Shown piece after piece: positions 192 to 63,864 of a stretch of DNA of 64,000 nucleotides (its first letter is position 1; every line of letters begins with the position of its first letter). Source of the stretch: Ulota crispa (lineage: Eukaryota > Streptophyta > Bryopsida > Orthotrichales > Orthotrichaceae). The notes beneath the pieces are model-generated. The model saw only the letters and a program-made list of their open reading frames with translations, made no database searches and was not told the origin of the DNA. The position numbers and the translations under genes are program-made. The stretch spans positions 9,564,727 to 9,628,726 of the forward strand of contig OY987245.1 of assembly GCA_963920765.1 (NCBI GenBank). The letters run 5' to 3'.

Positions 192-1146
192 TTAACCCCT
201 AAAGGCCCAAGCAGTTTTCTCCAGTGAAAGTCATTGTTAACTGCCACTTTGGGGGGAATGAGTAGAAAAGTAGGAAATAAAGTATGTTTTGCAAATCCAA
301 CCATAGGATCTTGCCTTAGACTAAAATAGGTACTTCTGGGAAAAAATCAAGTCATTCTAAATGGAGAGGAGGGAGATATTTACATCAGAAGTAAAAAAAA
401 GGTTTTTTTTTTTGTGCTATCCAAAAATTTCAGAAGTCTTTGTCCACACTTACATGAAAAAAATTACTATACACAAAGTTGAGGTTTATTTTTTACATGT
501 TGCAGACCAAATTAGGCAAGTGTGGGAGAATTTTTAAATCAATTGGAACTATACAACACATGGGAAAAAAATAGTAAGTAAAAAGAAGTAGAGAATCAAT
601 GAGTCAAATCACTAAATTGTTAAGAAATTAATTCTTAAAATGAAAAATGCAAATCCCAACGGTTGTAATGTTGTGATAAACAATCTACTTCCTTAGGTTT
701 AGTTTTTTTCCAAATATTAAAAATTGTGGAAAATAAAAGACTTCAAAGTTTATTTTAGAGTAGAACATCCATAACTGCCCACAAACTAAAGCATCTCATA
801 ACTTTCATCTCATTGATTGAAGTTGAATGATTCAAAGCTTCAAACATATGAAAAAACCTAAAGAACCAATTTCAGATTTCTATTTTTAGAAAATACAATT
901 TTTTAAGAAGTTTTTGGGCTACCTAGATTGCCCTCCCTTCCCTAGGCAGCAAAAATTCTTGCATATCTTCGTCGTCAAATGTCAAAATGACAAGAACATT
1001 AGATTCCCGTGTAGGTTTTGGAATTCTCCACCTTCAATAAAAGTTTAAAAAAATCACAAAAACTAGATTAGCTATAGGTGCATGCCCAAAATCTCAACTG
1101 TCCCCGGGGAGACAGCGTGGGGGACAACTAGGCTTTTAGGGGTTAA
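192..1146. mobile_element. TTAA-flanked piggyBac-like non-autonomous element (about 0.95 kb)
   Basis: Seen: it opens with TTAACCCCTAAAGG and closes with TTTTAGGGGTTAA, so a TTAA lies at each end of an inverted terminal repeat. The interior (for example the AGTAAGTAAAAAGAAGTAG stretch near 570) recurs near 33840 and, reverse-complemented, near 17400. No transposase reading frame is visible. TTAA duplication with CCC-starting ends is the signature of the piggyBac superfamily; the assignment is inference. Confidence 0.75.
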
Positions 1147-2810
1147 GGGATTGCAAATGATTGTGGTCAAAATCCCTAGTTGGAAAACAAGAGTGGGATG
1201 CATACCACACCTTCATAGTGATTATACATAATTTATCCAAATTAGGGTGAAGGGATCTTGCTCTATTCAAGATCTTGCATCATATGATATAACTTGAGTG
1301 TTACCACAAAAAAAAGATATTTTTTTAAAGCTTAGGTGAAGTCCAAGAGTGGCATTTTGGATGATGTACGCAACAATAATACAAATCTATTATGATTCGA
1401 AACATACGGATTTACACAGAATTGGCTTTTTGAATTACTTGTTACATTGTGGATTATCCTACCTTAAAAACTAGAGCCTTTTGTTGCATTAAGTTGTATT
1501 GTACCTTACTTGCAACCTTTTTGTATATTGTTAATCCCTATTACTTGAATTATCTTGTTGAGTAGTTGGCAATCAAAAGTAGTTTCTTGAGTATTTTTCA
1601 TTGCATTTTTTTAACACTATATGAACAAACTATGAAAATTTTTAGTATTGATTATAGTTACAAGGCTTTCATAATGAGAAAGTGTATATCTTATACAAAA
1701 GCTTATAGTGGTTGCTTTGAAAACTAGATAGCCATTGTTTGTAGTTATTTTGATTTTTATGCTATAGGGGAGATTAGTTCCAGCTAACCAATACATGGCG
1801 CTTGGCACTATCTTCAAGAAACTCAACCATTACAAATTGAAGCAAGGAAGTCCCCACACCTCAATACTAGAACCCAAGTTTGTTGGATTACCGAGGCCAA
1901 AAAAAATACTAATAAAAAATCTTTTGCTTTATTCAACTCTCGAGGTAAATCACACCTCCTTAGCACCAAACTTTATAAAAATATTACCATGTGGGCATTT
2001 TACAATGAACCAGGAAATCCATGGCAATATTGATATTTCTAATTGTGGGAGATGGAACTCAAGACAAAATGTGAATTGCAAAGTTCCAATTTCAATTCTT
2101 AACCAATACAATTTTGAGGAACTTGCAACCAAGTTCCACCCCTAAACTGAAACGAGTAAATTAGAAGACCACTCACTAAAAAAACAAACTATATATACAT
2201 ATGTACACATACACATATGTATGTATGCACACATGTGCATATGTATATATTAGTACATGGGCACGCGCTTTGCATAAGCTGGATGTACATGAATATTGCA
2301 ATCAAGGTTCTTTTTGTGTTTGGGCCAGGGTAGAGCAATCCACATCCCAAAAATGCTTGCAAGTAAGCAAAAATTGGATAAAATCAAACAAAATCAACAA
2401 TGTGTGCACATTCACCCATAAAATTTACTATAATTATTCACTTTCATTCAAATTTGGCAAACCCGGCAATTTCATCCACTTTTTCAGCCAATTCTTTTAG
2501 TGTAGTGGTAGCCAATGCCATATTCAGGTAAGATTTAGGCAAAAATTTGTCAAGAAAAAGATCCTTAATTGTAAGGTTGTAAGGGGAGACACTTCTGTGT
2601 GTGGGAGGCATATTTTCTCCTTACAACATTCCCAAAAGTTCTAGAAGGTTATGTAAAAAGGCACAAAGGGAGGGAAAACCTCTTGCTCGATAGTATATAT
2701 ACACTCATCCATAAATATACACGTGCATGGATAAACATACATACAAACATTACATACCAAATTAGTAATTAGTGCAAGATTCCAAATTAAGATCAAGTGA
2801 AAATTCTCTC
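1147..2810. other. Intergenic, no gene recognised
   Basis: AT-rich. It contains a 116-codon open frame at 1795-2145 (+) that resembles no family I know, and short alternating purine-pyrimidine stretches near 2190-2250 and 2695-2750. I see no splice signals joining these into a gene. Confidence 0.4.
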
Positions 2811-3007
2811 TTAACAAGTACAATACAAGGTAATTTTCTTGTATTTGGAATGGATTCACACCTTCAATATATTTCAAATCAGCAAAGAAGTTGGAGAATA
2901 GGTCAATGCAGTCCTAGTGAGCAATTTGAGATTCCAAATTAAAACTTATTGATGATACTAAATGCCAATTATATGACAACGTATCCTACGGACGTTTAAG
3001 GGTTTAA
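2811..3007. mobile_element. TTAA-flanked MITE, eroded left end, inverted relative to the next two
   Basis: The right end reads CGTTTAAGGGTTTAA and the left end begins at TTAACAAGTACAATAC. The interior (CTTGTATTTGGAATGGATTC) is the reverse complement of the 3' part of the elements at 3017 and 3247, so it is a third copy in opposite orientation. Confidence 0.65.
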
Positions 3008-3016
3008 CATCCTATC

Positions 3017-3250
3017 TTAACCCTTAAATGACCATAGGGCATAGTATATATGCTGACCTATAATTGTCATTTGCTACCAATGAGAAATTTTAATTTGGGA
3101 TCTCAAGTAACTCATTAGAACCGCATTGATCTATTCTCCAACTTCTTTGTTAGTCTCAAATGTAGTAGAGGTGTGGATCCATTCCAAATACAAGAAAAAT
3201 GCCCCATATTGTATTGGTCGAAAAAGACCTTTCGGTCGTTTAAGGGTTAA
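3017..3250. mobile_element. TTAA-flanked MITE, tandem copy 1
   Basis: It opens TTAACCCTTAAATGACC and closes GGTCGTTTAAGGGTTAA. Its closing TTAA (3247-3250) is also the opening TTAA of the next copy. The interior is about 230 bp and non-coding. Confidence 0.8.
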
Positions 3251-3489
3251 CCCTTAAAGGACGAGGCTACCATAATACATAGTATGTATGCTGCTGTATA
3301 ACTAGCATTTGCTACCAACAAAAAGTTTTAATTTGGAATCTTGACTACCTTATTAGAACAACATTGATCTATATTCTAACTTCTTTGTTGATCTCAAATA
3401 TAATAAAGGTGTGAATGCACTCCAAATACAAGAAAAAATACTCCGTATTGTACTGGTCGCAAAGGGCTGCCTCGTCCTTTAGGGGTTAA
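3247..3489. mobile_element. TTAA-flanked MITE, tandem copy 2
   Basis: It opens TTAACCCTTAAAGGACGAG and closes CTCGTCCTTTAGGGGTTAA. It is collinear with copy 1 (TTTTAATTTGG, then TTCTTTGTT, then CCAAATACAAGAAAAA) but has diverged, so the two are not a recent segmental duplication. Confidence 0.8.
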
Positions 3490-3742
3490 ACATACACAGT
3501 GAGGATATTTTTGCAGTAGCTGTGTAAGAATAGCATCTGAATCTAAAAAAACTGAAGAAGCTTTTACTGAAAGACCAAATGTACAAGTGCAAATTCAGGA
3601 TACAATACATCTACGGAACTGTTGCAAGGGCTTGGGCCACTTGAAACGCACCCATTGAAAAAAGCATGGTCACGTTTTGCAGGTTTACTTGTGTAGGGAG
3701 AAATCGAACCTTCCCAGCCATTGTTAAGCTTTTCTACCATAA

Positions 3743-13952: not shown

Positions 13953-14181
13953 TTAACCCTTGAGCGCCCAAGAGACATTATAATGTCTCTCAAAAAGCTG
14001 GGTCAACTCAATTTTGATTGATATAATCTCATTACACGTTTGGTGAAACCACTTCCAATCGAGTTCCACTAACAATTCATATGGTTGGATCCTATGGATT
14101 GTATTTTTCAATCCATAAGGGCACTTTGATTGCACACAAGTCAAGCTTTTTGCGTTTCAACTCTGGGTGCTCAAGGGTTAA
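13953..14181. mobile_element. TTAA-flanked MITE (229 bp)
   Basis: It opens TTAACCCTTGAGCGCCCA and closes TGGGTGCTCAAGGGTTAA. The inverted ends match over about 18 bases with TTAA outermost. There is no coding capacity. Confidence 0.8.
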
Positions 14182-14335
14182 CAAATTAAACAACTTCCAA
14201 CATTTCCACATGCAATGAACAAGGTAGGTACTTGTTATTTGGTCCTTCATGCCACCAATTGTAGTGGGCCAGTGGCTACTTGAATCGCCTATTCGCAATC
14301 AAAATTCACTACTAAACAACATCTAAGGTAGCAGC

Positions 14336-14720
14336 ATCCATAAGCGTTGCATCCCCATGCTCGTCATCTGAGAGTGGTAGGGCTAATCAATAAAAAAACA
14401 AATGGTTGTGGGTGATTGAGTGATGGTTGTGGGTGATGAAAAGATGGTTGTGGGTGACTAGCATGAGGTTTAGAGTACCCATCTCACTATTTAAGAACCA
14501 ACAAGCCTTGTGATTAGCATCTCTTACACATGATTCCTATAATTTCAGTGATTTTGGACTTTGAAAAATCTTTGTGGACAAATGCTTGCAATTGGAACCT
14601 TAAAATTGATGCCAATATTTTTGGTTTCCATTTCCTAACATATAGTATTTTTTTCAAAATTAGTCAATTGTTTTACCTACTCCAAAACCCTTATTTCCAC
14701 ACTTATGGGTGCGCCTACCT
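14336..14720. mobile_element. TA-flanked AGGTAG MITE, left arm of an inverted pair
   Basis: It starts AGGTAGCAGCATCCATAAGC and ends CTTATGGGTGCGCCTACCT, with TA outside both ends. Its sequence recurs almost exactly, reverse-complemented, at 14974-15368. Confidence 0.85.
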
Positions 14721-14973
14721 TACATCTTTTGTCAAGTTGGAAATAGGCTTAAACCCCTTTTGTAGTGTTTATGATCCCAAACACATTTCTCTATATTACA
14801 TCCATATGCATCTCTAATATAGTATTTGTAACATCACAATAACGCAACAACTAGTATTTTAGATTGATATAATTTAGAAAGTATCACATTGTTTTCCAAA
14901 ATGCTTAGAAGTGGTTGAGTGCAGTTGTGCTTCAAAAATGCATTTAAGTTCTGTGATCGCAGCATGATGTGTA

Positions 14974-15368
14974 AGGTAGGCTCACCCATAAGCGTGGAAA
15001 TAAGGGTTTTGGAGTAGGTAAAACAATTGACTAATTTTGAAAAAAATACTATATGTTAGGAAATGGAAACCAAAAATATTGGCATCAATTTCAAGGTTCC
15101 AATTGCAAGCATTTGTCCACAAAGATTTTTCAAAGTCCAAAATCACTGAAATTGTAAGAACCATGTGTAAGAGATGCTAATCACAAGGCTTGTTGGTTCT
15201 TAAATAGTGAGATGGGTGTTCTAAACCTCATGCTAGTCACCCACAACCATCTTTTCATCACCCATAACCATCACTCAGTCACTCACAACCGTTTGGTTTT
15301 TTATTGATTAGCCCTACCACTGTCAGGTGACGGGCATGGGGACGCAATGCTTATGGATGCTCCTACCT
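14974..15368. mobile_element. TA-flanked AGGTAG MITE, right arm of an inverted pair
   Basis: It starts AGGTAGGCTCACCCATAAGC and ends GGATGCTCCTACCT, with TA outside each end. Both arms encode the same accidental peptide on opposite strands (ISVILDFEKSLWTNACNWNL), which shows their very high identity. The arms are separated by about 250 bp. Confidence 0.85.
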
Positions 15369-15370
15369 TA

Positions 15371-16493
15371 CCCAAAATCACAGATTTGAGAATGTGTAGT
15401 TTACATGATATACATTATTTTGCAAAAAGAATCCAATTTGAGACTTATAGGTTTTACATCTCAAGCAGTATTCAGTAAATACTCTTATGAGGATGTAAAA
15501 TTCAAAAATCCCAAAATTATACTTGTTCTTCTCAAATAAATGAACATTGCATTCAATTACAAAAAAACAGGGAAGGTCTGATAATACATGTACAAGAGTA
15601 TCAAGCCCGATCCTTTTGGACAAATAATGCTAAATTACACCCATTCAATTAGGGTTCTTTTTCTTGGCAATATTTTGCCTAACTCTAACCTCATCTAGCT
15701 ATCATTGCTCTAAGAAATTGAGTGGAAAAGTGGATGAAACTGCCAAATCTTTCCCCAAACAAACAATAGGTTTGTCAATATTTGGATGAAAGTAATTAAT
15801 ATTAGTAAATATCAAGGGTGAACTTGCACACATTGTTGATTCTATTCAATTTTATCCAATTTTCCTTACCTACTTGCATTCTTGGATGCAGTTTGCCTTA
15901 CCTCGACCTAAACAAAACTAAAAGAACATGCATTCAATTTAATGTGATTATTGAAAGATTGAGAAAGATTGAGAAATGTATAAATAACTATACTCTCTAA
16001 TATTTGAATGTTTGATGAAGTTGTCAGGTTTTAGATAAAATTAAGAGAATATACTATAATATATGAATGGACTAATGCCTTCTATTAAGATACATACGAT
16101 TGTTCAAATATGTGGTTTCACTATAATTATGTATTTTTTGAAGGCTAGGATGAACTGACCCCTCATTGCTCCCTACCTCATGAAACGGGATCTTGGGGCT
16201 TTGTATACTGCACATCCATATTTTGGGTCAAGGTGGTAAAGTTCCATAATTTTACTAGCAAGAGCAAAAGTAATAATTTGTCCCTTGTTTTGGCATTGCC
16301 CAATTGTATTCTTCTCCATGTTTTTTGGAGTAAACTAAGATCTCTAAATCTAAATGTGAATTCAAAATTTTCTTATTCAATCTCTTGATAGTAATTCACC
16401 AAACTTTCACAATTTTTGAAATGCTAAAAAGTGGAGCTTTTCACTCTAACCCCACACTCATAAAGTAGTTGACCCAGCTCGTAAGGTAAGAGG
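15371..16493. other. Intergenic, no gene recognised
   Basis: AT-rich, with only short unrelated frames. It includes degraded repeat sequence near 16200-16330. Confidence 0.4.
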
Positions 16494-16867: not shown

Positions 16868-17807
16868 TTAACCCCTAAAGGACCAAAGTCCCCTTGGGGG
16901 ACAAATGGGATTTCGGGCATGTACCTATGGCTAATCTACTTTTAGTGATTTTTTGAAACCTTTATTGAAGGTGGGGAATTCAAAGATCTAAGTGGGCATC
17001 TAATTTTTTCTTCATTCCAACATTTGATGAAGAAGTTATGCATGAATTTATGAAAAATGGTGTTTGAAAGGGAGCCAAAAACTTCTTTAAAATTTTCATT
17101 TTTTTCAAATAAAAATTTGAAATAGGTTCTTTAGACTTATATAGACGTGGGAAGCTTTGAATCATTCCATTTTTGATAGATGAGATGAAAGCCATGAAGA
17201 GTTTTTGTTTGCGGGTAGTTCTAGATTCTCTACTCTAAAATAAACTTTGAAGTCCATTATTTTACTCAATTCTCAATATTTTGAAAAAAAAAACAAAACC
17301 AAAGGATGTAGATTGTTTATCACAACATTATAATCGTTGGGATTTGCATTTTTCATTTTTATAATTAAATTCATAACAATTTAGTGTTTTGACTCATTCT
17401 CTACTTCTTTTTACTTACTATTTTTTCCCATGTGTTGTGTAGTTCCAATTGATTTGAAAATTCTCCCACACATACCTAACTTGGTCTCCTAAAATGGGAA
17501 AAATAAACCTCAACTTTGTGTAGAGTAATTTTTTGATCTAAGAGTGATTAAAGCCTTTTGAAATTTCTGGGTAGCAGCAAAAAAAAACTCATTTCCGCAA
17601 TTCAAATGTAAATATCTCACTCATTTTTGTGTAAATTGAGTTGAATTTTTTTATCACGTGTACCTCTTGTAGTCTACTATAAGATCTTATGATTGAATTC
17701 TTGTAAAAAGCTTTTTTTCTTACCATTATACTTGCTTCCCCAAAAATGACAGTTTTCTGTGTTTTTCACAGAAAATATGGCTTGGTCCTTTAGGGGTTAG
17801 GGGTTAA
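16868..17807. mobile_element. TTAA-flanked piggyBac-like element (about 0.94 kb), reverse orientation
   Basis: It opens TTAACCCCTAAAGGACCAAA and closes TGGTCCTTTAGGGG, TTAGGGG, TTAA. The interior (CTACTTCTTTTTACTTACTA near 17400) is the reverse complement of the element at 192-1146. Confidence 0.8.
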
Positions 17808-21439: not shown

Positions 21440-21772
21440 AGTTTGAACTTTGCGGTAGCGCGTGGTTTGTTGCTGCTGTTGCCTTGAGTACTCCGTCTCT
21501 GAGAACGACTGTGTAGCGCCACTTTTTTGTATCAACTTCGTAACCCTAGAAAAGGCGTTGACGTGATGGCGCTCTTTTTCGTCTATACATGTTTCGTTCG
21601 ATTTCTTGCTCTTTTGGGAATGTGGTGATGGTTTTGTCGGATTGTCGTAGTAGGAATTGTGTGTTAAACCTCAATCATGCTTAGAAACTGAAGTTCATTC
21701 ATGCCACAATCTTGTAGTTCTTCAACCCCAAGCATTGCAGAATTGGAATTTTGGTCTTCTTCTTAACCCTTA

Positions 21773-22167
21773 AACGTCTGAGCAGCCCGTAGGAAGCAGT
21801 GCAATATGATGTATTATTCTTGTACTTGGAACGCATCCACACCTTTACTACATTTGAGATCATCAAATAAGTTTTTAAGTCCAAAATCACAGAAAATCCA
21901 TGGCTGTGAGTAGGAGATGCTAAAAACAATGTGATGGGCCTCTCAAAACTGTCATGCAAGTCACCTACAACCATCACTTTGTCACCCAAAACCATCACTT
22001 AAGTACCCTAAATCATTTTTTTAAATATTTATAATTTGATGCTAGGCGTAGGTAACACTTATGGGGGCAGTAATGCTGCTGGGTGGTGCTACCTCAAGCA
22101 ATGCCAGTTATACAGCAGTGTACTGTACATACTATGTACTATGATTGCTTGGTTGTTTAAGGGTTAA
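21773..22167. mobile_element. TTAA-flanked MITE with a nested AGGTAG-type fragment
   Basis: It opens TTAACCCTTAAACGTCTGAG and closes TTGGTTGTTTAAGGGTTAA. The outer parts match the family at 3017-3489 (CATCCACACCTTTACTACAT). The middle (about 21870-22105, AGTCCAAAATCACAG to GGTGCTACCT) matches the 14336 family. Confidence 0.7.
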
Positions 22168-26603: not shown

Positions 26604-28308
26604 TTACCATACAGGGTCGAGGCTCATTTTCATGGTTTCGGTCACATCAGGAACACTCCACCCGGCTTTCTTCAGCGAAGTCGAGAGCAGCTCCACTTCC
26701 TTGGCTAAGGTAACCAAAACTGCCTGAAAGATTTCAGAGACAGTACGTTTAGAAGGTTCACGAGATTCAGAATGCCGAATGTACCCTCATATTTCGCACA
26801 TCTACGAAACATCATAGGTCCAAGTGCCAAAGCACCGTGGACAGCAACAACTAAGAAAAATTTGCGAAAAGCATTGGACATACCTCTGCGTCCAGTGGTT
26901 GATTCCAAAGCTCTGGAGAAGACTGAGCCTCCATCATATCTGTAATATCGTCCTCCTCCCAGCCCCCCTGCCGAAGAACCAGGGACATCTCCTCAAGGTA
27001 ACCGGTTAGCCATTTTGAGGCCTTCGCTGCGCTGCTATCCCTCCTGATCATATTTTCCTTAGCTTGACATACCTTGACAGGATCCGATGGAGCAGCAATT
27101 TCATCATCCACAATTTGAGGTAGCCCTCTAGGAACGATACCAACCTGCTTTTGCTGCTTCTCTGCAAGCTCACTCCAAAACTCAACTCTGCGAGGAGATC
27201 GAGCAGCCCAAGGAGGGATCGCTATGGAAAAATCCATTAATGTTTTGGGAGGCAGAGGCTTCTCTATAATCTGACCATACCGAACGAGGTCTTCCTGGCA
27301 AATAGATGATCGGGGAGACTCGGATTCAGTTGATATGTTCTCATCACCCTTGGAAGCCTTCGAAATTTTCGATCTCGTCCGCCCGAATCTGCTAAAGATA
27401 TTACCTCTGCTCCGTGGTGTCCCCAAACCTTCTGCATTCTTAGCAAGGACGTCCAGATTTCGACCCCAAGTCTCGCTTCGACTCTCGGAACTACCGGACC
27501 CTGACGTATCCGAGAGGTCTGTTGCGCTGGAAGAACTTGAGGTTCGGTGTATGGAATCAAAATCCGTATGATAAAGGTCTCCTCGTTTGCTTGCTCCAGT
27601 CCCGCTGCTACTTCGGCCACTTCCCGTACTGTCCTGCCACTCATCCAACTCGAAGGGAGGGTCGCAATCATGAGCACGAAAGGCCTCCCGCTCGAAAAAG
27701 TCTGCAACATCATATCCACAATAGACGACGTTCTTCTGATGCACAAAAAACACAGGATTGCCTGCAAGACTTGGCGCAGATGCGATATAACAGTGACCAT
27801 ACATTGGAACAAGAAGCGGATATTTGCGTAATGCAGTGCGAGCTGTTCGGATGGCTTGCTCCATGTCCACAGGGCGCGGACCCCATGCTTTCCACCAGAA
27901 TGCCGAAGTGGCCACCTCGTGAAGAAGCCCGAGTACGGGGAGATTCAGACGCATACGAATATGCTGTACATTTCCGGTCCGCCAATTTGGAAACCCTGGG
28001 CCCACGGGGACGCCTTCTTGCAGTATCCCTTTCAAGTCCGGTGGGAACGTAAACCCGTAGGTTGCTTCAATCTTTTCAAACTCCTCCTCGGAAAGCCCGT
28101 CCGCAATCGGCACCTCGCATCTCCTCAAGTGGTCAATTACACTGCGGGCATACGCAGAGAAGGAAAAAAACACTCGCCGAGTTCCTGGTGGAGTAGACTG
28201 GCCAGCACTTGCACGGGCCGAAAGTCGCTTGAGGCCTGCCAGTTGTGTCTGATGCTTCGGAAGGACTCCTCTTAACGCATCCACGGATCTTTCCTCCACA
28301 TCCAACAT
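26604..28308 (-). CDS. Plant SMI1/KNR4-like domain protein, 2 exons
   Basis: Exon 1 is 28308-26884 (475 codons, donor GAG|GTATGT); exon 2 is 26723-26604, ending LDPVW then TAA; total 514 residues. The N-terminal part has GLKRLSARAS. The SMI1/KNR4-type region (~70-225) includes LSEEEFEKIEATYGFTFPPD, GVPVGPGFPNWR, PLLVPMYGHCYIASAPSLAG and NPVFFVHQKNVVYCGYDVAD. A Ser-rich low-complexity linker follows (~230-350), then the conserved PPWAARSPRRVEFWSELAEK and two similar short helices near the C-terminus (EMSLVLRQGGWEEDDITDMM; STSLKKAGWSVPDVTETM). Land-plant relatives are uncharacterised; in yeast, Smi1/Knr4 is a cell-wall signalling regulator. Long, GC-richer, stop-free coding strongly supports it. 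Confidence 0.92.
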
Positions 28309-29676
28309 TGTTGCAACGCGATATATCGATAGAACAAACTCAAATCCAAACGCTACAATCCTCCAACAATAACGCCCATTCTCCGCCTCTCCTGTATCCT
28401 CAATTCAAAGTTTCTTCCTTCAATCTCGGGGATCCAACCTCAAGCAGTAAACGCAAAGTTGCTTCAGACAACACTCACCACCTCGATCCTTCGATCGTCT
28501 CTTTCAAAGGCCAATATCTCTACACCTCGAGGTCTTCTACGCCATCGACGTCAGAGAAAGTGACGAGTGTCGGCGTCTGCATTCAAACAAAAGATTCAGA
28601 ACAGAACACCGCTATTTGAAAATTTTCGAACACAACGTATCAGTTCTCTGGCTACGCTCGAGTGAACAAACTATATCATTGAAAGCATCTGAAACACGAA
28701 CTCCAAGGACGACGACGGAAATCCGCAAGGCCAATGGACGCGAGCGCCGGAATTCTGACTGATGATAAAACATTCTAAGCAGTACGAGCCTTACGACAAA
28801 GAGATGCAACCATGTCGCGAGCATAAGTATCAGGCGCAAAATGATCAGGTCGAGGCTGCTCCGACAGCGATAAGAAAAAGCTTCTCAAGTGGCCATGACG
28901 AGACAAAAGTGCTCATCATCCGCGTAATAAAATATACGAAAAGCAACACTCATACCTCCGACAGCCGTGGCCCTCCAAGAAAGTACACTCACACGTCGTG
29001 GTCTCCGTCAAAACCAATTCGAATCAACGCGGCTTAAGCTCGGTCATCATCGATCTCCAAAACTCATCAAAGAAAGAAACAAAGGCACGACGATGTCGAC
29101 AGGAGCATGCCAACCACAAACCTATCACATCCTTCGATGCCTCAACCTCAGCAAAGAACGAAGAACCGACTGTCACTAAAATTCAACACAAATTGACACA
29201 CCATCGCTATCTCTTAACTTCCACTCTTTCAAATTCATCCCGTTCTAAGCTTAATAATCATCAGACATCACGATCAAAGCACGTTCAGCATTTAAATCAA
29301 CTTGTTTAAAAGCTTAAGTCAATAATCTCGCATCTCCACACCCGCACTAACTTAAATACTCCATTAACAGCCGATCCTGAACGAGAAACCGAGACACTAA
29401 TGTCGATAAGACCGCAGCCAGGTCCTCCGCTACCGTCACAAATGTCCGCATGGAAATGAGTCAGTTTAACGGCCAGATAAAACACCCTGAAGGCCGGCGT
29501 GGCTATGGCGGTAAGACCAACGCCTCTGGTACAACGCAAAAGTAATCTCGACAAAGCCGTCCAACGTTCGCTTGCGACAGAGACGAAGTGACAACTAATG
29601 AGAACGGCTTCGAGAACGTCATGAGAACGTCCTTGAGAACTTTTTTGAGACTCAGTGAAAACGTTTTGTGCTAAAG
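28309..29676. promoter_or_regulatory. Upstream region of the SMI1/KNR4-like gene
   Basis: GC-richer than surrounding DNA, with many short frames but none recognised. It probably holds the 5' UTR and promoter. At 29599-29665 a run of GAGAAC motifs (GAGAACGGCTTCGAGAACGT and later copies) resembles alternating GAA/TTC heat-shock-type sites. No TATA box is clearly placed. Confidence 0.4.
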
Positions 29677-30789: not shown

Positions 30790-31704
30790 TTAACCCTTTA
30801 AAGATCACACACATTTTTCTAAGATTCACTAGAAAGAGGGGCAATAAAATTAGATGTGCAATTGGAACAAATATGGACCCAATTTAAATAATCCAATCGT
30901 ACAAATGTGAAGGACACCTTGTTTGTTGTAATGTATCCAAAATTTTAGCTAGATCTACCGTTGGAGGTGAAATATTATAATGATTGAGTGAGCCGTATAT
31001 AGAAAATCTCTAGTTTTTCATGCTTGTGTGGTTTTTAATGTTAACACTTCATGCAAGTTTTGATTGAGAATAGCCTTACATTTCTAAAAAGTAGGGTTTC
31101 CCACTTTTTCAACAAGACTACTTTCACACAAAATAGACAAAAATAGCAATGACAAGGTGTAGCTAAGTGGACAAAAAGGGTCAAAAATCCCATTCTCTTT
31201 GCTACCCTAAAACGGTTTTATAAGAAATCTGATAATTGTTATGGAAAATTTGATCAGTGGAAGCAATCAAGAATTGGCCTTAAATGTAGGATGAATTTTT
31301 TAAAATAAAATGATAGCATCATTTCAATGGATTCTCAAATACTACAATTATACTACTACCGTATAGAGAAACAAAACAAGTGTGTTCCTTAAGGAGTTCA
31401 AATTTTTTTAAGATTGTACAATTGAAATGTGGCATTCTTCTTGGATGTTTGATATATTGTGTTGTTGCTTTGATCCATTTTTGACCAAATATGGGATTCG
31501 TATTTTGAGGCCATGATGTATAAACACCATTATTTATCAACTCCCATATCCGATTCCATTGTTGTTTCTTGGGTTGGATGCAAAATTCTTGTGATCACAA
31601 GAGTTCTTCAAGATCATTTTTCAAATTGTTAAGCGATTTTACTGTATAGGCCAAAAACTACTCTCCCGAACCAAAATGTGGTTCGATGGTCTCTAAAAAA
31701 TTAA
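30790..31704. mobile_element. TTAA-flanked element, 915-bp subfamily, copy 1
   Basis: It opens TTAACCCTTTAAAGATCACA; the right end (GGTCTCTAAAAAATTAA) is degraded. It is collinear throughout with 36759-37673 (for example AAGGTGTAGCTAAGTGGACA in both) and has the same length. Confidence 0.75.
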
Positions 31705-32510: not shown

Positions 32511-33472
32511 TTAACTCCTAAAGAATCAAGGGTGTTTTTTGAGAAAAAATCTTAGAAACTGTCAACTTTTAGAGCATTGCCCAAAATTTAAAATTTAAAA
32601 CCTTTTTTCTCAATTCCAACCGTACAAAAGTGTGTCAAATAGATAAGTTAATGTGTGCAAAAAAATTCAGCCCATTTGACCATGGAGATTGTAAGATTAT
32701 AACATTTGAAGTGAGAAAAATAGCTTTTTTTCATTCCTACAAAACAAGGTCAGCAAACTTTGACCCTTCCTAGAGTAAATTTCTTGCTCTACACAAATTT
32801 GAGCTTTTTGACCATTCACAAGTATATGATGTTAGGTTCACTCATGAACTTTTTCAGATGCAAATATAGAGTTTAGCTTATTCTAAATCACCCTCCAATG
32901 CAAGAAGGTTTAGTGAATTGGCAATACATTAGTCATTCTTTCATGATTTCTTGTGCAATGTGGAAGTCTTTTGTTTGAAATCTAAAAGGCAAAAAGTTGG
33001 AAATAAACATTTGGAATATGTGAAAAAAAGTTTCAAGAGCTTTAGATTTATAAATTGAAAGACAATAGGGCTTGAATTTAGAGGATTTTTTTTTCTTGAA
33101 GTTGCCCTAACATAGTTAACAAAGTTTGACTCTCTTTAGAATGTGATATGAGTCCTCAATTTGTTTATTTTTTTGACAATTGTACATCATGTTTTTTTAG
33201 TTACATACTTGCCAAATTTCAAAAGTTAATGAGATTTTTAGCATAAGATTCTCCAAAGATGCCCAAATTGCCCGAGCTGCCCAAATTCTTTTGAGCAACA
33301 TAACTTTTGAATCAGGCATCCAATTGGGGAAAAATTTACATTTCCACTTGGAGGATACGTATTTGTACCTTGCGTAACAATTTTGAGAACATCCAATAAA
33401 AATTAACTCCATATGACCCTACCCCAGTTCTCAAGTGGCTGTTGAACAGCCACTTGGTCCTTTAGGGGTCAA
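32511..33472. mobile_element. TTAA-flanked piggyBac-like element nested in Harbinger copy 1 (first of two)
   Basis: It opens TTAACTCCTAAAGAATCAAG and closes CTTGGTCCTTTAGGGGTCAA. The closing TCAA (33469-33472) doubles as the start of the next element and appears to be a mutated TTAA. Confidence 0.75.
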
Positions 33473-34388
33473 CCCCTAAAAGACCAAGCAAAGTATTCAC
33501 CAAAAACTCTTCAAAACTGCCTTTTTTAGAGCATCAACCAAATTTGAAAACAAAAACATTTTTATGCATATGTGACCATAGGATCTTGTAGAAGAATGGT
33601 AATAGAAGATGTGGAAAAAATTTCAGAGTTTTCCATCGCGTGGATTGGAAGTTAGAATGGTTTGAATATTCAAAAACATCTTGTGAAAATCCGGGAAGCT
33701 ACCCTTTTGAAGGTGAAATTCCTAAGGAAAAAAGGCCATGTGGGTGGTGCTTCTCTAAATTCCTTATTCCACCAAAGTAAAGTACATGTCAAAAAAGTTT
33801 CAAATCATGTGGAGTTGTATAACATATGGCAAAAAAATTAGTAAGTAAAAAGAAGTAGAGAATGTTTCAAAACACAAAATTGTTAAGAATTTAATTATGG
33901 AAATGAAAAATGCCAATCCCAATGGTCATAATGTTGTCATAAACAATATTCATCCTTTGATTATGTTTTTTTTCCAAAATGTTGAAAATTGAGTAAAATA
34001 AAGGACTTCAAAGTTTATATTGGAGTAGAGAATCCATAACTGCCCGCAAACAAAAAATCCTCATAACTTTCATCTTGTTGATTCAAACGGAATGATTTGA
34101 AGCTTCCTGCATTCACATAAATCTCCTAAACCAATTTTTTTTTTAAATTTATGAAAAAAGTGATTTTAAAAAATCTGCCCAGGCTGCCGGACAAACGTAA
34201 AAAACAGCATATTAGGCCATTTTTTACTCATAATTCCAAATGTCATGAAATTTAGTGCATATAAAAGATAAACCTCGTCCCCATATTATATTAAAATTTC
34301 AGCTTGAAACATGAAAAGCTCCAATCACAGGTACATGCCCAAAATCGCTATGTTTCTAAAAAAGGGGGTCTGGTCCTTTAGGGGTTAA
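33469..34388. mobile_element. TTAA-flanked piggyBac-like element (second of two, abutting)
   Basis: It opens TCAACCCCTAAAAGACCAAG and closes GGTCCTTTAGGGGTTAA. The interior matches 192-1146 in the same orientation (AAGAAGTAGAGAATG). Confidence 0.8.
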
Positions 34389-36758: not shown

Positions 36759-37673
36759 TTAACCCTTTAACTACCACACTCATTTTCACAAAATCCACTG
36801 AAAGCGGGGTTGTAAGCTTAGATTTGGCATTGAATCAAATTTGGATCCATTTTCAATAATTCAATCGTACGGATGGGAAGTACACCTTGTTTCTTGTATA
36901 GTACCAAAATTTCAGTTAGATTTATCATTGGAGGTGAAATATTCTAATGATTGAGTGAGTTGTATGCGGAAAATCTATAGTGTTTCATTCTTGTTTAGTT
37001 TTGAATGCTAACCTTTCATGCAAGCTTTGATTGAGAAGAGCCTTACATTTCTAGAAAGCACAATTTCTCACCTTTCCAACAAGACTAGTTTTCACACAAA
37101 ATAAACAAAAATACCAATCACAAGGTGTAGCTAAGTGGACAAAAAGGGTCAAAAAACCCACTTTCTTTGCTACCCTAAAACGGTTCTACAAGAAATTTGA
37201 TAATTATTTTAGAAAATCCAATTGGTGAAAACAATCTAGAATTAACCCTAAATGTAGGATGACATCTTTTAAAGCCAAAATGACAACTTCATTTTAGTAG
37301 ATCTTCAAATACTATAATCGTACTACTACCATATAGGAAAACAATACAAGCATATTTCTTAAGCAATTTGAAATTTTTTAGAATTGTGCAATTGAAATTT
37401 GACATTCTTCTTGCATACTTGATGTATTGTGTTGTTGCTTTGATCCATCTTTGACAAAAATTGGATACGTATTTTGAAGCCATGCCGTATAAACACCATT
37501 ATTTGTCAACTCACATACGCAATTGCATTGTTATTTTATTAGATGGATGCAAAATTCTTGTGATCACATGCATACTTCAAGACCAAATTCCAAATTATTA
37601 AGCAATTTCAACGTACAAGCTAAAAACCACACCCAACAACCAAAATATGGTCGCGTGGTCCTTAAAGGGTTAA
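36759..37673. mobile_element. TTAA-flanked element, 915-bp subfamily, copy 2
   Basis: It opens TTAACCCTTTAACTACCACA and closes GTGGTCCTTAAAGGGTTAA. Its closing TTAA overlaps the TAA of the following Harbinger-like element. Confidence 0.8.
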
Positions 37674-38774
37674 GGGCTGCTTTACATATGGGGGCAGGGC
37701 CAATTCACTCTATCAAAGGTCAAGAATCCTCACTTGTGATTGGACAAAAGGTTGAAATCAACCCCAAGTCACTTACACCTAGAGTAAGGGCCAATTTGGT
37801 GTAATGAATATTTTATTCAACAAAGACAAGATCTGACATGGCCCGAGCTCACTGAATTGGGTGCACCCAAAGTGGGAGGCCAATTCTTGGCCTTGGGGCC
37901 AATGTCAAGTTTCATTTAAAATATATGTTTTTTCATAAAATATTATTTTTTCACCAATCAAATCCATTCCCAAAGCCAACGGCACTAGAGAAGCTAGGGC
38001 ATGGGGGCATGGGGGTATGGGGGCATCATGGGGGGATGGAGGGCACTGGGAGATGAGGGGCATGGGGGGCATGGGGTATTTAGCTTGCTCAACTAGTTCT
38101 TATGTGTACAAAAAACACTAGGCTTGTAAACTTTGTGTCTATTTGCAAATCATTTTTTCCTTCTATGCTTCTCATGAAGTCTTTATGTAAACCTTGCATA
38201 TGTTGATATATTGATTTTTTTTCTGTCATTTTTTATGCAAGATACTCTTAATGATCTATAACTCATAGTATTTATTTTGCTAGATACTATCTGCATAAAA
38301 CTTGATTTTTGGAAGAACTAATCAATAGGCAAAAATAATGTAATTGTTTTGTGGTTGATAAAAGAAAATAAATGCAGGCAATTGGAATAACATACCTTGG
38401 TAATGTAAACAAAAAACTTAAGAGTTTGTTTCAAACTTCATGTTTAGGGTTCATGCACATTTTGGCAATGTCCCCCTCTTTTCACTTTAGATTGCAACAA
38501 GAAGCCACTATCTCCAAAGGCTAGCTTTTTGAAAACAAGCCATGGCCCATAAGAGATTTTTGTCACAATTTCTCACCTCTAGTGTAAAAATGGCTTAACT
38601 TTATTGAATTGGCCCAATTCCTTGGCCTTAAGGTCTTTCCATATGAGACAATTGACCCCCACAATAATCTAATTTTATTTAGTAGTGGAGGCTAGCCTTA
38701 AGCAAAATATGGGCTGAAATTTGAGGCAATTGGCCCCAAGCCGAATTGGCCCGCCCCCATATGCAAAGCGGCCC
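37674..38774. mobile_element. PIF/Harbinger-like element, copy 2 (1.1 kb)
   Basis: It starts GGGCTGCTTTACATATGGGG, ends CCCCATATGCAAAGCGGCCC, and is flanked by TAA (37671-37673, 38775-38777). It is inverted relative to copy 1. It retains an uninterrupted TTAA near 38697 (GGCTAGCCTTAAGCAAAATA) where copy 1 carries two nested elements. Confidence 0.85.
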
Positions 38775-46573: not shown

Positions 46574-49500
46574 ATGGCATTTCCTCTTTTTCCTCCAAAA
46601 GCTCCACCTTCCTCTCCTAAAGAGCTCCGTTTACAAGGTCCTCTTTGGTATGACAAAGAACCATGTCGCAAAAAAGGATTAATTGTCAATTCTAAGGTAA
46701 ACCATCACACTTGTTTTGGATCAACATTCAAATAATTAATTAAATAATTCAAGATTGTAAATGATTTGAATGTGTTGATTTTTTGTTTCTTCATATAATG
46801 CCTATCACAAAAGTCATATCAAGTATCGATTGGAATAAATTTATAGTTTTTGTTCTTTGCAAATTAAAAACGATTGATGTTTCAAATTTTTGTTTAAATA
46901 GATTATTTCATCTTTTTTAACTCAAACACATAAACGCAATCCTATAATTTCTTTTGACTTATTTCCAACGACTTAGAAATTACAAAGTTATTGTACATTA
47001 CAATATGTATATTTTTTTGTAAAAATTGTTGTAGTAATGATCTCGCTTCACAACCTTTTGTAAATTTTTAAGTTTTATTTTATTTTATTTTATTATGTTT
47101 CTCAAAGTTTGTTGTTTTCTTCAGTTTGAAAATTTGGTTGTGTTTTTGCAATAGGGCTCATTAGAAAATTGTGTTTGTGTGTGTGTTTATCTTCAGGAAC
47201 CTTTTAATGCAGAATCTCCCATACAAGTACTGAGCTCATCTTATTTAACAAATGAGGACATATTTTATAAGCGGAATCATGGGCCTATTCCCATTCTACC
47301 TGATCCTGAAACGTAATATTTGTATTAATTTATAACCTTTTGCGATTACAAACAATATGTAGAATTGATTAATAACTCACAATTGTATATGTCTTCTTCT
47401 TATTTAAAACTGTGATCATGATAAAAACATTCGTTAGGCTATATGAATCTACATACAATTAAATATAGATTTGTTTATATACAATAATCTCTAAAACACA
47501 ATACTTAACTAAATCGAAACAATCCAAAGTTTTGGAAATAAGAATTTGTTTTCAATTTGAACTTTTTTGGGAGAGAAGTATGCCCAAAGATTGTGAGTTA
47601 GCTCATGTTTTGCTTTTAAGATTGGGAGATATCTTTTAGTGTTATGTTAAAAAAAAATCAAGAGGTCTCTCGATGGATGTTTTGCATAGTCTAGAACTAA
47701 ATGTAAAAACATATTTACACTTGGCAATAAAGCTGTACTTTTATTCTGCTTTCAAGAGTGCATTTAAATGACATTAAAAAAAATGGATTTTCCTCTTCTT
47801 GATTTTTGCAGATATAATTTGGTTGTTACAGGATTTATACCAAACTCTCTATTTCTCTCTCTTGAATTTTTGAAGTAAGTAACATGATTTTTTTGCTTTT
47901 TTGGATATAACCACAAAAAATCAAAAATTTGAAATATTAATGGCTTTAGAGAGGAATCACCTAAATTTTAGTAAGTTTTTGTAATTATTTGCAAGTTCAC
48001 TAATTCAATTGACGGTTTAAGTTTAATTATTATTTTTGATGATTTCCGCAGATCGTTACCCAAATATACAATAGTGGCAACATTACAAGTAAAGTTTGAG
48101 GCTTATAAATAAATACACATATATATAAATACACACATATACATATATATGTCGTATGATAATGGATTCATTGAAAATACTACAAAGTGTTCAAATATGT
48201 TTTAACCCCTAAAGTTCTTTCGTGTTGACATGGTCAAATGTCTCCAAATTGACCTCTCTGAATAAAATGATTAGTAGATCAAAATTTGAGTTTTTTTCAA
48301 TAATTTAACTGTAAGATCTATTTTGTTACTTGCTTCTGTATATACTCTCAAAAATTCAAATTTTGTGAGGGCATACTTCATTAGATTATAACACTCAAAG
48401 TAGGGGCAAAACTTTATTTGAAGCTTTTCTAAGGTGTTAATTCTTTTTTGCTCATTCAAAATGATGTCTTCCACTTTATGATTTTCTTGTGCAACTTAAT
48501 TTTTTTTGTAGAGCACAAAGTTGGTTATATGCCTCACAAATTTCATGATCACCCAATGCCTTAAAACATAATGGAAAACAATCACGGCTTTGTTAAAACT
48601 GTCATTACACTAAGAAAACTTCAGAGAAGAGTTTCTTAGAGAAATAAATCTCAATTGCAAAATCCCTAAGATGCAAACCTAGAAAATCATGTGGAGTACT
48701 TGCCAAAGTATTATTTTCTAAAAATAAAAAGTAAAATAGAAGTTATTACATAGTCAAGGAGAGTTGACTGCAAACTTTGCACATTGACCAAGCCATTGTA
48801 AAGTGCTTTTGAACACTATTTGGGCAACTACCTTCCTCAATCCCTTTGTTTTTGAATTTTTTTGAGGATGCCCGTGTTGACATCAAAATCACATTTGGTA
48901 CCATATCTCACTCAAAAATGATTCAATTCCACTTTTTTTTAGAGATGTGCAAGCTTTTCAATATGAGCACATACACCCTTATTTTCACAATCTTATCTTT
49001 TGTATTTACATAGGAAATGCTTGCCCAAATATCCCAAAAGCCCAAAGTGGGCTCCTGGGTCCATTAGGGGTTAAAATGGTTAATTTTAAAAACTAAATTA
49101 CATGTTTCAAATAAATTGGGTGTTTTTGAATAAGGAATACTCATGCAAGGACTCTGTAGTGTGCAGGAAATCGAAGGACAGAAATGAGTAGAAAGAGGAG
49201 AGTCAAGGGGGTTGGCTGGGGGGCTGGAGCCATTGGCACAGGTGATTCTGATTTCATACCCCTTTTTGGAAAGAAAGAAGATATACATTTATTTGAAATT
49301 TCTTCGTGTATGAAAAAGTTGGGTTTTATTCTAGGTAAGTGAATGTCAAATTTCTAAGTCTTTCATTTTGATAGATTGCATGTTATAATGTATGTATATG
49401 TATGTATATATGTGTGTATGTAAAGTTTCGTTTTTTGAGCTTTTGAAGGTTGTTATTCATTTTATACTTGCTTGATTTATAAAAGAAGGATATAAAAAAA

Positions 49501-51119: not shown

Positions 51120-54100
51120 GCCTTTAAAATTTCCTAATACATTATATTTATTTATACATTTTATTGGGTAATAGGAAGAGGATGAGGGACCGTACAAAGC
51201 TTCAATACCCATGTTACATGCAACAACTCCCGAATCCGATGTTTTATTGGCTTATGAAATGAATGGAAAGGTGCAATTTTTTTTTTTTTTACATTGTTTT
51301 TTATACAACTTTAATATTTATTTCTTCTTCTTTCCTTGCTTGTCACTTAACTTGTGAACTTTTTATTAATTTTGGAGCTTTTGTAGGTGCTGAGTAGAGA
51401 CCATGGATATCCTCTAAGAGTTATAGTTCCAGGGGTTGTTGGAGCTCGCTCTGTAAAATGGATTGAGACAATTATCATCTCTAGATTTGAATGCCAAGTA
51501 TGCACAAATATGCGTATATACGTTTGTTAATATGATTTTAATAACTTTTTGTAAGAACTTTTTTGTGAGTTGGCCATTCCAAATCAAAGCTTGAAAATAC
51601 ACAGGTTTATTTCAATTTAGTAAGAGATTTTGAATAGCGAGAGGAATCCCTGCTTTAATTTAGCGTGAATTTGCCTAATTAGCATAAGAATGTGGCATGC
51701 ATCCCATCCTTAATCTTCGGCTGAGGGATTTTTTTGCCCACAACCTTCTGTAACTTGTAAAGTAGCAATTTGGTGGCGGGCCCTTTAAATTACAATATTC
51801 TTTACACACTCTCTAGTGGAACTACATATTTGCAAAATCTCCTTGGAATTTTGGCAACTATAAGGAAGGTAGTTCAAATTGTGTCCCCTCTCACATAAAG
51901 TGTTCCATAGGTAGCTCAGGAATGGATAGGAGGTGGTTCTTGAATGAATCCTCCTTAGTCATAAAAGAAAAGGTGTATTCTATTACAAGAGCCAATCACA
52001 CTCCTTGATTTCACCTCATCTAAGGGCAATTTTACACTTGCGAGACAGGCCATCTGCCTACATTAGAGGCCACTAATCTTGCCTTCTGATTGGACAAAAA
52101 GCTGAAATTAGCCCCAAGGCCCTTACACCTACTAACAAGGTCAATTTGGTGGAATGAATTTTTTTATTCACAAAGACAAGATCTGATATGGCCCGAGCTC
52201 TCTGAAATGGGTGCACCAAAAATGGGAGGCCAATTATTGGCCTTGGGGCCAATGTCAAGTTTCTTTAAAAAAATATCTTTTTTCATAAAATATTAAATTT
52301 TTTCCAACAGAATCGGTTATATCNNNNNNNNNNNNNNNNNNNNNNNNNNNNNNNNNNNNNNNNNNNNNNNNNNNNNNNNNNNNNNNNNNNNNNNNNNNNN
52401 NNNNNNNNNNNNNNNNNNNNNNNNNNNNNNNNNNNNNNNNNNNNNNNNNNNNNNNNNNNNNNNNNNNNNNNNNNNNNNNNNNNNNNNNNNNNNNNNNNNN
52501 NNNNNNNNNNNNNNNNNNNNNNNAAATGAGTTTACTAATTACTTGTGTAGGCTTGTATATTTTCTATTCCCTCCATCCCAATATAATGCTCCAAATTAGG
52601 CATAGTTATTGTCCCACTAAAAAGCTCCTTTTTGCTAATTTCAATTGCTTAAAAAGCATTTGTCATGTCCAATGATCTCATGGGGGTAAGTTAAGCAATT
52701 ACATAGCATTCCTCTCCTAACAAGCTTGGCCTTGCCCATATGAGGTACCATTGTTGCTACTAATCTTTAAATCATCAATCTTGAGGAGCTACCAACATGT
52801 ACAAATATGGTACTTTTTGCATGGAATCTAGGTGTCAATAGTAACATAAAAATTGGAGATTTTCAAACATTTGGTAGGTGGTATATTGATTCTAGAATGC
52901 ATTTGTCACTAGCATAATGACTAAAAGTACAGCTAATCCCTCATGGAGAAGTTTTTTGGAGCTTTATAATAGGACAGAAGGAGTATCTATTTGCAAACCT
53001 TTTTTTTCCTTCTACGCTTTTTCAACCTTGCATATGTTGATATTTTGATTTCTTTTTCTATGATCTTTTATGCAAGGTACTCTTGATGATCCATAACTCA
53101 TAGTATATATTTTGCTAGATACTATCTGCATAAAACTTGATTTATGGAAGAACGAATCAATATGCAAAAATATTATAGATGCTTTGTGGTTGATAAAAAG
53201 AAAATAATAAAGGCAATTGGTATAATATACCTTGACAAGGTAAACAAAGAACTTAAGAGTTTGTTTCAAACTTCATGTTTAGGGTTCATGCACATTTTGG
53301 CAATGTCCCCCTTTGTCCAACTCTATTTTTTGGTATCTATCATCATGTCATTGTTTCAAAATCAAAAATCAAAAAATCAAAAAATAAAATAATTAAAAAA
53401 ATTTGTGGCCTATTCTCACTTTACATTGCAACAAGAAGCCACTATCTCCAAATGCTAGCTTTTTGAAAACAAGCCATGGCCCATAAGAGATTTTTGTCAC
53501 AACTTCTAACCTCTAGTGTAAAGATGGCTTAACTTTATTGAATCGGCCCGACTCCTTGGCCTCAAGGCCTTTACATATGAGACAATTGGCCGCCACTATA
53601 ATCTTATTTTAATTAGTAGTGGAGGCCAACTTAAGCAAAATGTGGGCTGAAATTTGAGGCAATCGGCCCGTAGCCAAATTGGCCCGGCCCCCATATGTAA
53701 AGCGACCCTAATATAAGTTGCAGGGGAACGGTTTATGGGAGACCTAGAATCACAAATAGGTGCCTACTATAGAAATTTTTTGAAAATTCATCAACAATCC
53801 AACAATACTTGAAAAAATATGAAATTTTTTGTGTTACATTTGACATCCATTTCTTTCTTGTTTGAAAATCAGACAAAAATATTCTTGTCTAAAAAGCCCA
53901 TGAAAAGGCACATTGACCCTAAAAGAAATCGCTTTTAGTGCAATTTACCTAAATTGCACTCTTTAGGATTATGTTAGGATACTACAATCCACAAACATAC
54001 TAAATTAACCTAATGTGATGTTAGTTTGCTTTGGTAACGAGCCTTACAAATTTACTTATTTTCTTGAATTAGTGCAAGTTAGCAGTATTAATTTAAGGTG

Positions 54101-60483: not shown

Positions 60484-61136
60484 TTAACCCCTAAATGCCC
60501 AAGGCACCACACTATGGTGTTGATAATACTTTGAACTTCTATAAAACCTAACCAAGTTTCTATTTTTAGAAGATTTTTATTTTTTAATTATTCTTTTTGA
60601 AGTCTAGTCTTAGCATCAAAAAATAAATTTTGTAAATGATTGATTATACTTTTTCTATTCAAGATTTTGTGTAAGGATGTCCATTGCTATCTTGACTTTT
60701 TTAGTGTTGAGAGCTCTTGGAAATGAGCCTCATAAACACTAAATCTTGGAGAAAATTTTACATTAGAAATTCATTTAAAAAAATTGTAGAGGAGATTTTG
60801 AAAAGCCGTAAATTAATTGGAGTTATGTATGTTCTGTCCTTTAACCCCATATTTTTCATGCAACCATGTTTTATATTTGACATGTGAAAAGAGGATTGAA
60901 AGACTTCAAGGCATTTTCATAGTTTTAACACCCTCTTGATTAAACATTATAATCTTTCAATCCATAAATGATATTATTGTGTTTTCTTTTCTTGTGCAAT
61001 CTCTAATGTATTTAGTTTGATTTTGTACATCTACAATTTTAAAAAAACTAATAAAATTTATCAAAATTTTGACTTTTTGTTCAAATTAGAACAAATTCTA
61101 AAAGCTCAAGAAGTGCCTTGAACATTTAGGGGTTAA
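60484..61136. mobile_element. TTAA-flanked piggyBac-like element, shorter (653 bp)
   Basis: It opens TTAACCCCTAAATGCCCAAG and closes TTGAACATTTAGGGGTTAA. It is probably a deleted relative of the ~0.9-kb elements. Confidence 0.8.
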
Positions 61137-62952: not shown

Positions 62953-63864
62953 TTAACCCCTAAATCCCTAGGGCCTTCATTTTGTCAAAAGACACTCAAA
63001 ATTGCCATTTCTATTGCAAAGAGTAAAAAAATTGAAAATTGGTCTTTTTGCATCTCTAACCGTAGGATCTTGTACTAGATTAGTATAAGAATGTGGAAAC
63101 AACAATTCAAAAACTTTGACCACATAGATTGCAAGATATTTGCATTCAAAGTGTAAAAAATATATTTTTTTGCACCTTGCATGACTAGACTATTTGACTT
63201 TGAACTTTTTTTCTTTAAAATTTTTGCACCACAGAGTTTTGAGGTTTATTTTTTTATGGTGGGGAATTGAGTTGAGAATCTTTGGAAAAAAATCAAAACA
63301 AAAAACACTTAATTTTCATTCTTAAAAAAAACATTAAATAGAAGAAGGTTTGAGATTGAACAAAAACTTACATTGTTAATAACCTTGCAATGCAATTGAA
63401 ACTCAATAATCCCAATGGTGAGATTGTTCTAGCAAGCAAACTTCACCCTCTCCAAAAAAATTTGAAAAATTGTTAAACTTGCATTCAAAAATGAAGTTTA
63501 TAAGTTATTTTTTCAAGAAGATGCTTGAGGTGTCTGAAAAACAAGGTTGTCCATAACTTTCTCATAACTAGTCCAAATAGAATGGGTCAAAGCTTCAGAT
63601 GTAAACAAAACTATATCCTATGATAAACTAAAAAAATTAAAAAAATTTGAGTTTTTGTAAAAAAAACTACTGCCCAATTTGCATAAGTTTGGCATAACTT
63701 TTGCTTTTGGGCATTGATTGGAATAAAAATTATATTCCCCAAAAGTTAATGTGTTTTCCTATCTTCAAAAAAAATTCAAAAATCAAGACAAAAATTGAGG
63801 CTATATGTACTTGCCCAAAATCCCATTTGTCCCCCGAGGGGACACTTAGGGATTTAGGGGTTAA
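62953..63864. mobile_element. TTAA-flanked piggyBac-like element nested in the 915-bp subfamily element
   Basis: It opens TTAACCCCTAAATCCCTAGG and closes TTAGGGATTTAGGGGTTAA. At the same place the 30790 and 36759 copies read GCTACCCTAAAACGG without any insertion. Confidence 0.85.

Follow-up and report, generated by a model that had tools for sequence, protein, structure and literature searches.

Probable non-autonomous piggyBac elements, and transposase genes with matching ends, in the moss Ulota crispa

The stretch of Ulota crispa DNA analysed here, called the window below, is 64,000 nucleotides long and contains copies of a Harbinger-like repeat, the edges of which bear TAA/TTA and the ends of which resemble GGGCCGC. 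Read directly, one of these copies has ATTTTGC followed by TTAA (32511-32514), an element that extends to 33468, the word TCAA (33469-33472), a second element that ends at 34384, another TTAA (34385-34388) and then GGCTGGCC. An earlier note on this DNA had claimed that TTAA stands at each outer edge of the occupied site and only once in copies 2 and 3 of the repeat, and our direct reading agrees; it had also described two abutting elements between the TTAA copies, a description that can be refined, as E6 and E7 (Table 1) have one single four-base word in common, now TCAA. At window positions 37665-37680, a junction TTAA/TTA is common to Harbinger-like copy 2 and the element at 36759-37673, which indicates that one was inserted at the edge of the other. 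A run of N lies inside copy 3, at about 52317-52523.

Table 1. Elements and unoccupied sites in the window; T40, T27, T36 and T28 are extended transposase loci described in the text.
Feature	Position	Strand	Description
E1	192..1146	+	955 bp; homology between one end and the 3′ end of T40, T27 and T36 extends to TTAA
E2	3017..3250		234 bp; CCCTTAAA ends; TTAA in common with E3
E3	3247..3489		243 bp
Element with CCCTTGAGCGCCCA / CCCTTGAGCACCCA ends	13953..14181		229 bp
E4	16868..17807	-	940 bp; right end corresponds to the 3′ end of T40, T27, T36 and T28
E5	21763..22167		405 bp; ends of the same family as E2/E3
E6, non-autonomous piggyBac-like	32511..33472		962 bp including both target copies, TTAA / TCAA
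E7, non-autonomous piggyBac-like	33469..34388		920 bp; adjoins E6 via the common TCAA
M36	36759..37673		915 bp; CCCTTTAA ends; adjoins Harbinger-like copy 2
Unoccupied TTAA, Harbinger-like copy 2	38698..38701	-	reads ATTTTGC-TTAA-GGCTAGCC
E8	48202..49074		873 bp
Unoccupied TTAA, Harbinger-like copy 3	53631..53634	-	reads ATTTTGC-TTAA-GTTGGCC
E9	60484..61136		653 bp
E10	62953..63864		912 bp

Besides TTAA, the elements have inverted ends that start with CCC or CCY beside this word. The end TTAACCCCTAAA occurs 22 times in the window when at most one mismatch is allowed, against a mean of 0.8 in shuffled sequences. By pairing these occurrences and adding inverted pairs bounded by TTAA, 12 elements were counted, which cover 8,233 of the 64,000 bases (12.9%). 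The TTAA-bounded search gave 17 inverted pairs from 466 sites, and it added the elements at 13953-14181 and 36759-37673. Among the control words, AATT gave 22 inverted pairs from 798 sites, six other words gave 1-13, and the low-complexity words ATAT and TATA gave 481 and 464, respectively. As the count for TTAA is no higher than that for AATT, the signal lies in the CCC-type end and not in the pairing. Two further features of the window stand apart from these elements. An inverted repeat of another kind occupies 14321-15371; its inner arms, CTCACTATTTAAGAACCAACAAGCCT, are perfect and lie at 14491 and 15203, and pieces related to this repeat are found in the element at 21763-22167 and in the transposase locus L053 (6368-6774). 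Moreover, an open reading frame at 26851-28404 had no relative in the prokaryote genomes searched.

Occupied and unoccupied sites could be compared at three insertions, namely the E6/E7 site, E10 and an element at the locus L007. The last two were obtained by joining the flanks of elements in a script and comparing them with other fetched sequence, which gave relatives without the insertion. For E10, such relatives lie at 31102-31327 and 37064-37294 (79.3% and 77.5% identity). For the L007 element, they are the end regions of T40, T27, T36 and T28 and of E1 and E4 in the window (76.7-82.1%), together with a weak additional relative in E6 (67.5%). Every one of these relatives of E10 and of the L007 element is directly seen to hold a single four-base word in place of the two at the occupied site; this word is TAAA, TCAA, ACAA or, in E4, TTAA. 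In the E10 relatives, and in the majority of the L007 ones, it is one of the first three, which was counted against the case. Additionally, the T27 sequence has a three-base gap directly before the four-base word, and those of T28 and E4 have gaps slightly further away. A possible empty site of E1 was discarded, as the joined flanks match at 67% with TTAT and are too diverged to use.

To examine the surroundings of the target, 43 termini were collected by means of a pattern in which TTAACC and the greater part of the following six bases are fixed. None of the 12 positions outside TTAA is invariant in them, and the strongest biases are A at -5 (0.49), A at -8 (0.47) and C at -1 (0.44). Genome-wide, TTAA precedes 3,038 of the 3,614 exact copies of CCCCTAAAGGACCAAG (84%). 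A four-base duplication of TTAA is read from the empty sites in the Harbinger-like repeat and from the two other insertions, with shorter readings formally open: because TTAA is its own reverse complement, the junctions alone also fit a target of two bases (TA) or of three. The junctions being ambiguous in this respect, it is the transposase that decides.

In the 274.8-Mb genome of U. crispa, the piggyBac transposase domain (PF13843) has at least 120 matches, the best with an E value of 1.3e-73; this number is a lower bound, since 116 of 528 candidates were scored. All matches listed lie over the cut-off and some genes account for two of them. The same domain had no match in any of 14 control genomes. 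Stops interrupt 110 of the 120 listed matches, while ten have no internal stop. When a 195-aa piece of another subfamily (L054) was used as the query, 152 matches were obtained, and they reach places absent from the PF13843 list, such as C3:16590129 and C6:5217358. The 476-aa open frame of L053 matches two solved structures, 6x67 (entry name “Transposase”, which we take to be the piggyBac of Trichoplusia ni; E 4.1e-20) and 9c0f (piggyBat; E 5.8e-17).

The catalytic aspartates of piggyBac are numbered D268, D346 and D447. In an alignment and tree of 31 domains (30 PF13843 loci and L053), with a median identity of about 35%, D is found at these three positions in 28, 23 and 26 domains and at a fourth aspartate position in 26, so that the catalytic aspartates are a feature of these proteins too. 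All four are kept in 17 of the 31, and N is the commonest replacement. In five frames from L053 and L054, DDE_Tnp_1_7 is the only domain that Pfam finds; the cysteine-rich zinc-binding domain typical of the C-terminus of piggyBac was not among its matches. Seen by eye, the stops in the transposase copies are mostly TAG or TGA and N mostly stands in place of lost catalytic D residues, a pattern that C-to-T decay of methylated DNA would produce. An open frame, the full set of aspartates and both ends do not occur together in any of the copies examined. For instance, L053 has N at one catalytic position, L021 keeps the aspartates but changes reading frame upstream, and L054 and L057 have open domain blocks; no E1/E4-type end could be tied to L053, L054 or L057, all three of which were fetched whole, nor were other ends tied to the last two. 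In L054, at 2250-3941 (C1:1180709-1181995), the DDE domain is split into two stop-free reading-frame blocks about 270 bp apart, probably because of an intron in this subfamily. L054 was also considered as a domesticated gene, and this was rejected because its 195-aa piece has many relatives at 62-76% identity, most of them with stops.

Thirty transposase loci with 1.5-kb flanks were compared with the window elements. Homology to E1 and E4 was found at the edges of four of them (L040, L027, L036 and L028), and weaker matches join E6 to L040 and E9 to L011. These five loci were extended and are referred to as T40, T27, T36, T28 and T11. Few TTAACC-type ends had been found by a search inside the first 4.1-kb transposase loci, owing to the 1.5-kb length of the flanks. 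In the extended sequences, T40, T27, T36 and T28 each have, 3′ of the transposase gene, a TTAACCCCTAAA terminus that is 72-81% identical to E4 over 349-365 bp. It lies 1.6-1.8 kb past the domain and always on the 3′ side, and the presence of transposase genes beside these ends is a matter of direct observation. In all four loci the homology to E4 comes within one base of the terminal TTAA, and that to E1 extends to it in three; the E1 end is 72.6-75.4% identical to T40, T27 and T36 over 358-369 bp, and its match to T28 stops short of TTAA. T40 has both E4 ends, the left one with 77.6% identity over 210 bp, and spans 8,255 bp (C8:11097229 to 11105483) with TTAA at either end; its transposase domain contains five stops, and additional TTAACCC-type ends 80 bp outside the left end and 7 bp outside the right end make its exact outer limits arguable. 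T27, T36 and T28 showed no E4-like left end in the sequence fetched. DDE_Tnp_1_7 is consequently found in elements with the same ends as those of the window, both in T40 and one in the other three, for the E1/E4 family only. In the tree of 31 domains, the transposases of these four loci form one clade (support 0.989), which is an independent result, as the loci had been chosen out of 30 by their end match.

Partial homology also links E6 and E7 to piggyBac transposase loci: E6 matches T28, T36 and T40 over 58-122 bp, and 58 bp at the end of E7 match T27, E7 being 80-81% identical to E1/E4 over 316-384 bp. For the elements at 3017-3489, 13953-14181, 21763-22167, 36759-37673, 48202-49074 and 60484-61136, the assignment depends mainly on TTAA and similar ends. 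In L011, which belongs to another subfamily, the ends are TTAACCCCTCATCGCC and TTAACCCTTCATTGCC, separated by 5.03 kb. Self-complementary structures are also present around these loci. T11 contains a 726-bp fold-back (C3, about 13128829-13129554) with arms 95.9% identical, both of which are 81-82% identical to the E4 left end, and some 875 bp of T28 (3285-4159; C9, about 12444642-12445516) are 94.7% identical to their own reverse complement. Upstream of the transposase, there are self-complementary units of about 380-420 bp, two in T40, two in T27 and one in T36, some of which have TCAACCCC..GGTGTGCACATATC arms.

The number of such ends in the genome was counted directly. The exact 12-mer TTAACCCCTAAA occurs 30,972 times (15,477 on the plus and 15,495 on the minus strand), against 77 (41 and 36) for the reversed 12-mer, and the 17-mer TTAACCCCTAAAGGACC is found at 8,154 places (4,072 and 4,082 on the two strands), with none on either strand for its control. 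Among the first 100 of these 8,154 places, there are 17 pairs of neighbours that point towards each other at no more than 2 kb, of which 13 span 903-963 bp; four pairs of neighbours within 2 kb are otherwise oriented. Elements of 873-962 bp, from the window and from L002-L008, are collinear wherever they can be aligned; for instance, positions 363-482 of the element at 62953-63864 match positions 359-477 of L002. In a comparison of 14 elements, that at 36759-37673 matched none and that at 60484-61136 matched over about 34 bp at an end only. Because homology is collinear even in copies that have otherwise diverged, a single ancestral passenger is indicated, and we infer that the elements of about 930 bp may represent a single old passenger family whose length has been kept despite divergence; an origin through independent internal deletions is disfavoured by the same collinearity. 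The density of exact 12-mers is 156 per Mb in the window, which holds 10 of them, and 113 per Mb genome-wide. If the window's 12.9% is scaled by this ratio, a rough estimate from one window, the piggyBac-like share would be about 9% of the genome, or 25 Mb. Four TTAACCCCTAAATTT ends of alternating orientation lie within 1.7 kb at C9:6160533-6162215, possibly as a tandem or nested array.

The elements of about 930 bp and the transposase loci might have an end in common only because one was inserted into or next to the other. Nesting is indeed frequent: E2 adjoins E3 and E6 adjoins E7, an E4-like end contains the L007 element, a fold-back formed from the left end of E4 is found near T11, and T40 has its extra outer ends. 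However, a single end type recurs at the same side and distance in four loci whose transposases belong together, and the two end types are both present in T40, oriented as expected, so that an explanation by insertion is very unlikely. The target could also be shorter than four bases, either TA, as in Tc1/mariner (ACCCC...GGGGT in T-TA-A), or TTA/TAA, as in PIF/Harbinger. Junctions in a palindromic TTAA are compatible with this, and the host repeat of E6/E7 is itself Harbinger-like, but the full TTAA precedes the great majority of exact ends (84%), a 3-bp target would leave the ends unsymmetrical and the transposase beside the ends is that of piggyBac; a shorter target is hardly credible.

Another superfamily that duplicates TTAA, above all Kolobok (or Sola3), could have produced elements whose ends resemble those of piggyBac by chance. 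Duplication of TTAA, which Kolobok has in common with piggyBac, does not by itself separate piggyBac from Kolobok or Sola3; the Kolobok transposase differs from that of piggyBac. Since the longer U. crispa copies with the same ends carry DDE_Tnp_1_7, unlike Kolobok, and the four loci with the TTAACCCCTAAA-type end represent one transposase clade, such an origin seems extremely improbable, the argument against Kolobok from the neighbouring transposase applying to E1/E4.

It is thus very probable that the window elements are non-autonomous members of the piggyBac superfamily, which is defined by TTAA duplication together with CCC-type ends. The earlier note had proposed piggyBac-like elements in a land plant, and this is borne out by longer copies with a matching end that encode a decayed DDE_Tnp_1_7 transposase. 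A genome search for such transposases with matching ends, which it had recommended, was positive, with at least 120 matches and four end-matched loci. It had also named two contrary outcomes, a TTAA embedded in a longer conserved end and matching copies with a different transposase; the 43 termini and the single word in the empty sites are at odds with the former, and the matching copies carry DDE_Tnp_1_7. Its further claim, that an autonomous source mobilised at least a dozen elements in the window, agrees with the number, 12 having been counted; as to the source, no intact autonomous element was found among the few loci examined closely. The transposase, with its DDE_Tnp_1_7 domain and catalytic aspartates, would be supplied by longer elements with the same ends elsewhere in the genome. 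It would recognise the CCCCTAAAGGACC-type inverted ends and cut the element out at TTAA, the excised element would join another TTAA, which would become duplicated in the process, and the donor site may be repaired seamlessly, as is typical of piggyBac. Past rather than present activity would have made the copies, as nearly all the transposase copies found are decayed.

The U. crispa elements are like piggyBac (6x67) and piggyBat (9c0f) in their TTAA target, their CCC-type inverted ends and a DDE_Tnp_1_7 domain with catalytic aspartates. They are unlike them in their moss host, the long subterminal homology, the dominant passenger of about 930 bp, the diversity of the domains and one subfamily that looks intron-bearing. 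The mechanism is a known one; what is unusual is the host, the abundance of ends and the long life of the passenger. To our knowledge, piggyBac is poorly documented in land plants. A Ceratopteris repeat table has a PiggyBac row, with 1,230 copies and 0.00% of the assembly (PMC6890710), and a list of superfamilies of angiosperm MITEs includes PiggyBac (PMC10004981). These repeats have been given the same superfamily assignment as the U. crispa elements, but the passages concerned provide names without linking ends to a transposase, whereas in U. crispa the two are linked and the ends are far more numerous. A statement that piggyBac elements have been isolated from insects, fungi and plants (PMC10813416) counts against novelty. 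It has also been stated, in a passage of PMC10905368, that all plant DNA transposons leave footprints. In the moss Ptychostomum knowltonii, annotation with EDTA and RepeatModeler2 is reported to assign 29.13% to terminal-inverted-repeat transposons, CACTA having the largest share (PMC11704416).

No description of piggyBac transposases in mosses was found among the papers that searches of the open-access literature listed. In protein databases, some moss proteins carry the label piggyBac-derived; as far as databases are concerned, piggyBac in mosses may therefore be known already. One paper that had appeared to deal with piggyBac in a moss (PMC10619864) was discarded, as the match was to the word “piggybacking”.

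It may be that mosses harbour an ancient, diversified and native piggyBac lineage, with a passenger of about 930 bp in tens of thousands of copies that makes up about a tenth of the genome, a reading that we hold tentatively, as a little short of probable. If it were true, plant DNA transposons without an excision footprint would be expected, and part of the terminal-inverted-repeat fraction of mosses may be misassigned piggyBac. In any case, the abundance of piggyBac in U. crispa bears on repeat annotation. Among the tools of genome engineering, piggyBac is a major one, and most of what is known of it comes from animals. A native plant piggyBac might provide plant-adapted transposases, and a plant genome rich in native piggyBac would make the traceless excision of a plant transposon testable.

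Finally, contig C157 contains PsaA and PsaB without stops and was taken as plastid. Among solved structures, these two proteins match 6l35, 7ksq, 7kux, 7xqp and 8htu best (1642 and 1681 bits), which are Physcomitrium photosystem I; 9lut and 9luu follow (1610 and 1643 bits), and the remaining entries, many of them from flowering plants and algae, reach 1572/1603 bits at most. A host among the mosses or near them is thereby most likely. Beside these two full genes, 46 more psaA/psaB matches were found on chromosome contigs, and they are apparently fragments of plastid DNA inserted in the nucleus.
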